64,000 nucleotides of DNA from Oscillospiraceae bacterium (GTDB lineage Bacteria; Bacillota; Clostridia; UBA1212), in NCBI GenBank assembly GCA_015069195.1, contig SVJA01000002.1:124001-188000 (forward strand), read 5' to 3'. Under the pieces are notes generated by a model. The model made no database searches and was not told the origin of the DNA. It worked only from the letters and a program-made list of their open reading frames with translations. This document shows, in pieces, positions 16,359 to 60,025 of this stretch; the first letter of the stretch is position 1, and each line of letters begins with the position of its first letter. The position numbers and the translations under genes are program-made.

Positions 16359-16435
16359 GAACCCTGTCACCTCGATAAAAGCAAAAGCGACGGTCACGTA
16401 CCGTCGCTTTTGCTTTTATCGAGGTGACAGGGTTC
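16359..16435. repeat. Perfect 36-bp-arm palindrome overlapping the tRNA-Pro 3' end
   Basis: The arm at 16359-16394 is the exact reverse complement of 16400-16435, with a 5-base centre (CACGT). The right arm includes the last 17 bases of the tRNA-Pro gene (T-arm, acceptor 3' strand and discriminator), so the left arm is an inverted copy of that tRNA end. The inner part (16381-16413) could serve as the tRNA terminator. The outer part cannot be needed for that. Confidence 0.9.
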
Positions 16436-57880: not shown

Positions 57881-58327
57881 ATGATGAAGATAACCATTCT
57901 TGCTGTCGGCAAGATTAAAGAAAAATATATGCGTGAGGCGATTGCGGATTACAGCCTGCGCCTTTCAAAGTACTGCAAGTTGAACATTATCGAAGCGCCT
58001 GAAGGATTGTCGGTCGAGAAGGAAGGCGACGACCTTCTGCGTCTTATTCCGCAGGGCTCGTATGTTATTGCACTTGACCTTAGAGGTACAATGGTCAGCT
58101 CTACCGATCTTGCCGATATGTTCCGCGAAACTACAGTTGCCGGCGAGTCTCATTTTACTTTTATCATTGGTGGTTCCGACGGCATAGATCGCAGAGTTAT
58201 CTTAAAAGCAAACAAATCCATTTGTATGTCGAAAATGACTTTTACTCACCAGATGGCAAGACTCATAATTTGCGAGCAGATTTACAGGGCAATGAAAATA
58301 AACGGGGGAGAGAAGTATCATAAATAG
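57881..58327 (+). CDS. rlmH: 23S rRNA pseudouridine-1915 N3-methyltransferase RlmH
   Basis: 148 residues. SPOUT-class enzyme with ITILAVGKIKEKYMREAIAD at the start, YVIALDLRGTMVSS, FIIGGSDGIDRRVILKANKS knot motif, and TFTHQMARLIICEQIYRAMK with INGGEKYHK at the end. It modifies helix 69 of 23S rRNA. The stop codon overlaps the first base of a 19-bp inverted repeat. Confidence 0.96.
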   Translation: MMKITILAVGKIKEKYMREAIADYSLRLSKYCKLNIIEAPEGLSVEKEGDDLLRLIPQGSYVIALDLRGTMVSSTDLADMFRETTVAGESHFTFIIGGSDGIDRRVILKANKSICMSKMTFTHQMARLIICEQIYRAMKINGGEKYHK

Positions 58328-58406
58328 AGCTAATCTGTGAGGCGTGAAAAAACAGCCGAAAACTTACAGTTTTCTAATGATTTTTTTACGCCTCACAGAT
58401 TAGCTC
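58327..58406 (+). repeat. Structured TAATGAT-core repeat, copy 1
   Basis: Outer arms 58327-58345 and 58388-58406 are perfect 19-bp inverted repeats. Between them lie a CAGCC strand, a small hairpin (GAAAACTTACAGTTTTC) and CTAATGATTTTTT. The same core recurs at 58431, 58510 and 58991. Confidence 0.8.
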
Positions 58407-58588
58407 TTTCGCGGGGGAGAAGGTAAAGACAGCCGAAATTCTGCCGAATTTCTAATGATCTTTTTGCACTGTGGTATTGACGACTTTCGATGGGGAGGAC
58501 GGTAAAAATAGCCCAAAACCTATGGTTTTCTAATGATTTTTTCTCGCATCACAGATATGCTCTTTCGAAGGGAAGAAGGCTTGGGAAT
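58354..58588 (+). repeat. Three imperfect tandem repeats of about 78 bp
   Basis: Units start at 58354, 58431 and 58510 (AGCC each time; periods 77 and 79). Each unit runs AGCC, hairpin, TTTCTAATGAT(T/C)TTTT, a variable arm, CTTTCG, then a G-rich GGGGAG-A-GGT-like end. The last unit runs into the ribosome site of the TfoX-N gene. Confidence 0.8.
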
Positions 58589-58906
58589 ATGGCAACAAGT
58601 AAAGAATATTTAGAATTTATAACAGAACAGTTGTCCGAAGTGGACGGAATCACGTATCGGCAAATGATGGGGGAGTATGTTATTTATATGAACAGTAAAA
58701 TTGCCGCGTATGTTTGTGATGACAGATTGCTGGTAAAACCTGTGCCGAGTGCGGTGCACATGATGCCGGAAGCTTCTTATGAGTCTCCGTATGCCGGAGC
58801 AAAAGAAATGATTCTTGTAGAAAATGTAGACAACAAAGAGTTCCTTAAAGAACTGTTTGAAGCAATGTTTGATGAGCTTCCGGAATCGAAGAAGAGGAAA
58901 AAGTAA
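58589..58906 (+). CDS. TfoX N-terminal domain protein
   Basis: 105 residues from the ATG at 58589. The single domain is TfoX-N: MATSKEYLEFITEQLSEV, then YRQMMGEYVIYMNSKIAAYV and DDRLLVKPVPSAVHMMPEAS. TfoX/Sxy proteins control competence in Gammaproteobacteria, but isolated TfoX-N proteins in Firmicutes have no known role. The tail KKRKK is basic. The ribosome site (GAAGG) and 5' leader come from the last of three tandem repeats upstream, so the repeats may influence expression. Confidence 0.82.
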   Translation: MATSKEYLEFITEQLSEVDGITYRQMMGEYVIYMNSKIAAYVCDDRLLVKPVPSAVHMMPEASYESPYAGAKEMILVENVDNKEFLKELFEAMFDELPESKKRKK

Positions 58907-58916
58907 TATGTAAAAC

Positions 58917-58955
58917 AGTCCCCGCCGTTTGGCAATAAACCAAACGGCGGGGACT
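58917..58955. terminator. Strong hairpin after the TfoX-N gene
   Basis: A perfect 16-bp stem (58917-58932 with 58940-58955) around a 7-base loop, in the convergent gap with ispE. Confidence 0.8.
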
Positions 58956-58961
58956 ATCATA

Positions 58962-59044
58962 AGCAAATTACAGAGCACAGTAAAAAGACATCCGAAGACC
59001 TAAAGGCTTTCTAATGATCTTTTCACTGTGCTCCGTAACTTGCT
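58962..59044 (+). repeat. Structured TAATGAT-core repeat, copy 4
   Basis: Outer arms AGCAAATTACAGAGCACAGT (58962-58981) and ACTGTGCTCCGTAACTTGCT (59025-59044) pair in 18 of 20 positions, with the other two G-T type. The core has CATCC, a hairpin GAAGACC-TAAA-GGCTTTC and TAATGATCTTTT. The outer arms share no sequence with those of copy 1. Confidence 0.8.
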
Positions 59045-59047
59045 TTA

Positions 59048-60025
59048 TTAACACAAATCAAGAGCTATTGCAAAATATCCTTCGCTACGGAATTTTCGCA
59101 TTGCTTTCCATGCTAAATCACGTGCTGCATAAAGACCGAAAACTGTTGAACCGCTACCGGACATAAGGGTTCCGATTGCGCCGGAGGTTGCGATTTCTGC
59201 TTTGAGCTTCTTTAGTTCGGGTTGGAGATCGAACGCAGGTATTTCAAGCACATTTTTCATATTCTGTGCGAAAAAATACAGATCGCCTCTTTCGAGCGCT
59301 TTTATGAGTGCCGTCGTATCGGGGTGTTCGTCGCTCGGGATATCCATTGAGTCGAGTCTGGTGTAGACGCGCTCTGTTGACAGGAAAATGTTCGGGTTTA
59401 CTATGAGAATGTATCCTTTGTTGAGCGGTGAAATTGTTTTGAGAGTTGTACCGGTGTCTGTTGCAAGTGCTGTACCGCCTTTTACGAGGAACGGAACATC
59501 AGAGCCGAGACTCTTTGCAAGCTCGCACAGCTTGTCTACGGAGTAGTTTAGTCCGAGTAATTCATTCATTCCCTTCAAAACTGCCGCTGCATCTGCGCTA
59601 CCGCCGCCGAGACCACCGCCTACGGGGATTTTTTTTCTGATGTGAATGGCTATTTTATCCTGTGAACCACTCTCGTTAAGCATTAAGCGGGCTGCTCTGT
59701 ATGCAAGATTCTTTCTGTCTGTAGGGAGTTTCGGATTTGTACAAGTGAGTGTAATCTGCTCATCAACATCCGGCTCAGGAAGAGGCTTTCCGATGCGCTC
59801 GAAATAGTTGCGACGCTCTTCTTGTTTCTCTTTTGCTTCGAGTATTTCATCGACAACATCCGCTTTGAGACCGCTGAAATTATCTTGACTGAAAATTACA
59901 ATTTTGTCATAAAGAGGAATTTCCTGCATTATCATATTTACAAGATGGTAGCCGTCGTCTCTCTGCCCGAGAATATCTATTGAAAGATTGACCTTGGCGT
60001 TTGCGTTAATATTTACGATATTCAT
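59048..60025 (-). CDS. ispE: 4-diphosphocytidyl-2-C-methyl-D-erythritol kinase
   Basis: 325 residues from the ATG at 60025, which gives the GHMP start NINANAKVNLSIDILGQRDD; the open frame extends 62 codons further but that part is not kinase-like. ATP-binding loop KIPVGGGLGGGSADAAAVLK and the C-terminal GTLMSGSGSTVFGLY. It phosphorylates CDP-methylerythritol in the non-mevalonate isoprenoid pathway. An insert around residues 70-95 (EAKEKQEERRNYFERIGKPL) is longer than in most homologues. Convergent with TfoX-N, divergent from glnS. Confidence 0.95.
   Translation of the reverse strand: MNIVNINANAKVNLSIDILGQRDDGYHLVNMIMQEIPLYDKIVIFSQDNFSGLKADVVDEILEAKEKQEERRNYFERIGKPLPEPDVDEQITLTCTNPKLPTDRKNLAYRAARLMLNESGSQDKIAIHIRKKIPVGGGLGGGSADAAAVLKGMNELLGLNYSVDKLCELAKSLGSDVPFLVKGGTALATDTGTTLKTISPLNKGYILIVNPNIFLSTERVYTRLDSMDIPSDEHPDTTALIKALERGDLYFFAQNMKNVLEIPAFDLQPELKKLKAEIATSGAIGTLMSGSGSTVFGLYAARDLAWKAMRKFRSEGYFAIALDLC

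Follow-up and report, generated by a model that had tools for sequence, protein, structure and literature searches.

Long hairpins with conserved caps at gene ends in one clostridial genus, and a possible template-switch origin of their matched arms

Repeats around rlmH, the TfoX_N gene and ispE

The window, by which we mean the whole 64,000-nt stretch of Oscillospiraceae DNA analysed here, contains four copies of a repeat in the neighbourhood of rlmH (SPOUT methyltransferase; 57881..58327, + strand), a TfoX_N-domain gene (58589..58906, + strand, with a likely start at 58589) and ispE (GHMP kinase; 59048..60022, − strand). Copy 1 (58326..58407, + strand), at the 3′ end of rlmH, is a complete element in which a left arm (58326-58352), starting inside the rlmH stop codon (58325-58327), is separated by a core loop (58353-58380) from a right arm (58381-58407); the arms are 96% complementary over 27 nt. 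Its U-tract is weak, and it is followed on the + strand by a tail (58408..58424), TTCGCGGGGGAGAAGGT, comparable to the purine-rich tails that lie 3′ of right arms in the sister species. Copies 2 (58425..58485) and 3 (58503..58563), also on the + strand, are tandem units; the former consists of a core (58425-58468) and a diverged right-arm region without a matching left arm, the latter of a core (58503-58546) and a right-arm region. Copy 3 with its flanks is 80% identical to copy 1 across 85 nt. The TfoX_N reading frame is open upstream through copy 3 (58490-58588), and automatic annotation may therefore place the gene start inside the repeat. Copy 4 (58961..59045, + strand), between TfoX_N and ispE, is again complete, with arms (58961-58988 and 59018-59045) that are 89% complementary over 28 nt. 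It ends 2 nt from the end of the stop codon of ispE, which converges on it, so that its core is oriented antisense to ispE and sense to TfoX_N. An ordinary hairpin of 16 bp with a 7-nt loop (58917..58955) lies between the TfoX_N stop codon and copy 4.

A sequence-only reading of this locus had described four repeats sharing a core, with copies 1 and 4 enclosed by pairing outer arms and copies 2 and 3 arranged as 77-79 bp tandem units that lack the left arm. This description stands. The cores start at 58347, 58425, 58503 and 58984, which gives a tandem step of 78 nt for copies 1-3, and the two complete hairpins (82 nt for copy 1, 85 nt for copy 4) are far more stable as RNA than shuffled sequences: copy 1 folds at −50.7 kcal/mol (z −14.6, with 0 of 200 shuffles equally stable) and copy 4 at −36.2 kcal/mol (z −8.3). 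Copies 2 and 3 show no gain in stability over shuffled sequences (z −0.1 and +0.2), as expected because the left arm is missing. The reading had further claimed that the inner hairpins change on both sides together; four pairs do, but copy 3 has C opposite C at its first inner pair, and the inner stem of copy 4 contains one G-U pair and one A-C mismatch. Across the four cores 96% of alignment cells are paired, and 2 to 8 of 500 shuffles match this covariation, a signal that is weak because there are only four sequences. A search for the exact core pattern in the same genome and in the family returned just the four copies. The reading had recognised no known family, and likewise Rfam gave no credible match at gathering or relaxed thresholds, with no hit reaching a gathering score.

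Core families and their distribution

A covariance model of the window core, which we call family I, found 17 matches in the sister species (G002), the sole other member of the genus compared with the window's genome (G000). Another 29 genomes from the order gave no match, and in a 391-genome sample of the class, searched with stricter filters, nothing was matched apart from G000. The suggestion that relatives would hold further copies with paired arms thus holds in the sister species but not outside the genus. (One family I alignment, in which the structure was not lined up, was left out of the analysis.) Many of the 17 matches lie in 70-79 bp arrays at gene ends. In several of these arrays the first copy sits at the stop codon of the gene and has an exact arm pair of its own (ATAACGCGTGAGTGGGCTGCGG in the case of eno); a purine-rich tail comes next, and then 70-79 bp tandem units in which core, right arm and tail recur but the left arm does not. 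This is the layout of window copies 1-3. The eno array (L032 and L033, on contigs C16 and C19) is split between the two, breaking off where the first ends and continuing where the second begins, and therefore the assembly probably broke in the repeat. One intergenic region shared by both species (L156:11363-11443 and L054:5312-5392), upstream of what we take by eye to be a spoIID-like gene, holds an array with a family II core in one species and a family I core in the other.

To place these elements among other long hairpins we draw on a palindrome scan of 1.0 Mb of G000 (about half) and about 0.92 Mb of G002 (about two thirds), plus short loci around model matches. From the roughly 1.9 Mb scanned, 65 long hairpins were kept. 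Some are plain long palindromes without a core, and most come from several core families that share one architecture, in place of the single core family first supposed. The common plan comprises arms of 16-31 bp around a cap made up of an A/T-rich stem, an internal loop (G-rich/A-rich) and a small hairpin. The commonest arm lengths are 28-29 bp (27 of the 65), and there is a ceiling of 31 bp apart from three hairpins of 36 bp. Besides family I we distinguish family II, with the core TCCT-GGTTTAGC-loop-GCTAAAA-AGGA; a short core family with a loop of 6-7 nt; and family IV, with the core GGTTTAC...GTAAAA. The family II model returned 50 rows in G000, which correspond to about 40 places since several sites were matched on both strands, and six rows in G002; it had no match elsewhere in the order or in the 391-genome class sample. 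In the family II alignment 94% of cells are paired and 47 cells are changed on both sides, a result equalled by 0 of 500 shuffles, and one-sided changes are almost absent. When G000 was searched with the core sequence only, 10 of 15 family II cores were flanked by at least 15 contiguous pairs; the others were imperfect or belonged to tandem units. In other Clostridia and in four relatives within the order, sampled less extensively, long palindromes were fewer and did not gather at stop codons in this way. A pair of family II hairpins lies 1.6 kb apart in G000 (L262, G000:C2:78500-83500; also L249, L250); their arms are nearly the same, one carrying a single one-sided change (U.G in the sense RNA), and the pair looks like a local duplication. 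We found no description of this layout in the literature, our search of which was incomplete.

The dispersal of the core families, with the many family II places in G000, raises the possibility of a small mobile palindromic element (REP/MITE-like), which the sequence-only reading had also named as an option; its core would insert in terminator loops or just past genes and take its arms from the host site. Differences between orthologous gene ends would agree with this: the element is present at one eno end and absent from the other, and at L206 and L149 a simple terminator stem, TACAGGGG/CCCCTGTA, is common to both species while the cap lies inside it in G000 only, as if the core had been added within a shared stem. 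A mobile element is nevertheless unlikely. No target duplication was seen, the families are restricted to the genus, and orthologous sites carry hairpins with different arms. Viral contigs gave two chance matches without the structure and nothing convincing, and a search for the Y1 class of transposases was negative in G002, which is 69% complete, and gave only two matches in G000, of which one is a fragment with a stop. With neither a transposase of this class nor a phage link, the core may have spread by another route.

Position, polarity and matched change of the arms

The hairpins are strongly associated with gene ends. Measured from the first base of a stop codon, 35 of 51 arms start between −7 and +9, as opposed to 18 of 174 ordinary hairpins in the same genomes (p = 7e-16); the genes are mechanically called ORFs, and these position counts are therefore approximate. 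In the sister species the starts cluster 1-7 nt before the stop codon, and those of family II fall mostly 0-6 nt after it. The former had prompted the idea of a mechanism measured from the ribosome or the stop codon, which we rejected: family II starts after the stop, and closeness to the stop fits the outward growth of an ordinary terminator equally well. The next gene is convergent for 22 of 30 elements, compared with 362 of 1521 (24%) other genes (p = 2e-8). For elements that can be assigned to a family, the core is in sense orientation to the adjacent gene in 25 cases and against it in two (p = 6e-6 against an even split), copy 4 being one of the two by virtue of ispE, yet sense to TfoX_N. 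Such a bias speaks for an element that works as RNA, but it is not significant (p = 0.15) if 80% of genes are assumed to be co-oriented to begin with.

Palindromes that start at stop codons and form tandem arrays call to mind a site-specific recombination array, such as integron attC sites. We regard this as very improbable, for here the centre is conserved and the outer ends differ between loci, the reverse of attC. A closer contender is a protein- or RNA-binding 3′ UTR element, such as an mRNA stabiliser or an RNase III site, that is not itself a terminator. The long duplex (up to 31 bp), the conserved internal loop with its small end loop, and the ordinary hairpins that adjoin some elements (58917-58955 in the window; L156:17233) would all suit such a role. 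However, an ordinary terminator-like hairpin follows within 160 nt in just 2 of 38 elements; moreover, the outer right arm is U-rich in 43 of the 65 hairpins where 24 are expected from shuffles, although not all have a U-tract. We therefore hold the 3′ UTR role to be doubtful and favour transcript-end structures.

The arms are perfect in 47 of the 65 hairpins, and mismatches occupy 22 of 1682 positions (11 of the G.T type and six of the A.C type); the scan prefers near-perfect arms, so that this low rate comes partly from the selection of hairpins and perfection is overstated. Comparison of orthologous gene ends reveals how the arms change. At the end of a LysM gene the arms of the two species share little sequence, yet each pair is complementary. 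At L254/L239 and L166/L145, where the proteins are 91% and 94% identical, the arms can be aligned, and changes in one are matched by changes in the other. Right arms further along an array, and those in remnants, have in many cases drifted, whereas the first pair is still exact. A further locus (L203:6232-7107) was considered as proof that a right arm had copied coding sequence and was dropped, the C-terminus being poorly conserved in the alignment.

Elsewhere in the window (16359-16435) a perfect palindrome of 36 bp with a 5-nt loop overlaps tRNA-Pro(tgg) by 17 nt at its 3′ end. Since these 17 nt are the tRNA end, the outer arm there can only have been copied from it; a reverse-complement copy of functionally fixed sequence is thus shown for this palindrome, a demonstration that does not extend to the four copies. 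A T-run follows it on the tRNA strand. Together, the nearly always exact Watson-Crick arms, the palindrome entering a tRNA gene and the diverging later units of arrays point to template-switch copying as a source of the matched changes, and perfect hairpins are known to arise and persist through template switching in replication (PMC8794818). With such a source, compensatory change is by itself no proof of selection here. The sequence-only reading, which took it as the trace of a selected structure, is nonetheless partly upheld on other grounds, because a selected RNA structure is favoured by how the core is oriented and by the position of the hairpins where transcription units end.

Might template switching alone suffice, with palindromes simply growing at inverted repeats in this genus and the cap without function? 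Long perfect palindromes do exist without a core (that at tRNA-Pro, and L165:8647), and the sharp ceiling on arm length is what a cleavage threshold for long palindromes would yield. The SbcCD nuclease cleaves longer palindromes. sbcD scores above its cut-off in G000 and G002 but not in two relatives, G004 and G013, and the ceiling of about 30 bp could reflect SbcCD cleavage, this correlation spanning four genomes only. The conserved core sequence, its biased orientation and the sites at convergent gene ends make a neutral by-product distinctly unlikely.

Proposed origin and known systems

We consider it reasonably probable that the hairpins are transcript-end structures retained by selection: most likely they are intrinsic terminators that carry a conserved cap and owe the making and continued matching of their arms to template switching. 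A stem of 16-31 bp, locus-specific in sequence and often with an A-tract/U-tract, would start at or just past the stop codon, and the small cap hairpin would probably fold first, drawing the long arms together. During replication the new strand could fold back on the inverted repeat, one arm being copied from the other; such template switching would create, extend and correct the stem and would be the main source of matched arm changes. Selection would then retain those hairpins that function at the RNA level. The tandem units that lack the left arm, both here (copies 2 and 3) and in the sister-species arrays, would be decaying products of slippage. Several observations speak against this reading: the sister-species starts that precede the stop codon, which template switching alone leaves unexplained, the U-tracts missing from some hairpins, the ordinary hairpins beside some elements, and copy 4, which is near the ispE stop codon but antisense to ispE. 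A bolder version, which we think unlikely, would make the cap a new genus-specific RNA motif that works in one orientation and is recognised either by RNA polymerase itself or by a dedicated factor; DNA copying of limited length, pivoting on the cap, would turn gene ends into exact hairpins some 28-31 bp long and multiply them in arrays.

As terminators maintained by template switching, the hairpins would share with known intrinsic terminators a position just past the stop codon, an A-tract/U-tract in many cases, and a location mostly at transcription-unit ends. They differ in the stem (16-31 bp as opposed to about 10, with near-exact pairing), in a large structured loop belonging to conserved families, in possible overlap with the stop codon and in tandem arrays. 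REP/BIME repeats (PMC3733652) are likewise families of short extragenic palindromic repeats, but here the arms are locus-specific, inspection revealed no GTAG or CGTC foot at the element ends, and no RAYT association was found. The stem-loop families of Cozzuto et al. (PMC2267715), as far as their description allows comparison, resemble ours in being repeated stem-loops in bacterial intergenic regions.

Compensatory change in a stem is usually read as proof of a selected RNA structure. Here, in dozens of natural hairpins, the arms diverge between orthologues yet stay near-exactly complementary with few G-U intermediates. The set makes the origin and upkeep of RNA hairpins by template switching directly testable in a bacterium, and it urges caution in covariation-based RNA discovery, where such stems should not be taken as the work of selection alone. 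Template-switch (quasipalindrome) hairpins (PMC8794818) have the same perfect stems, matched multi-base changes and scarcity of G-U intermediates; ours are set apart from them by their occurrence at dozens of loci in one genus, by a preferred arm length and by a conserved cap.
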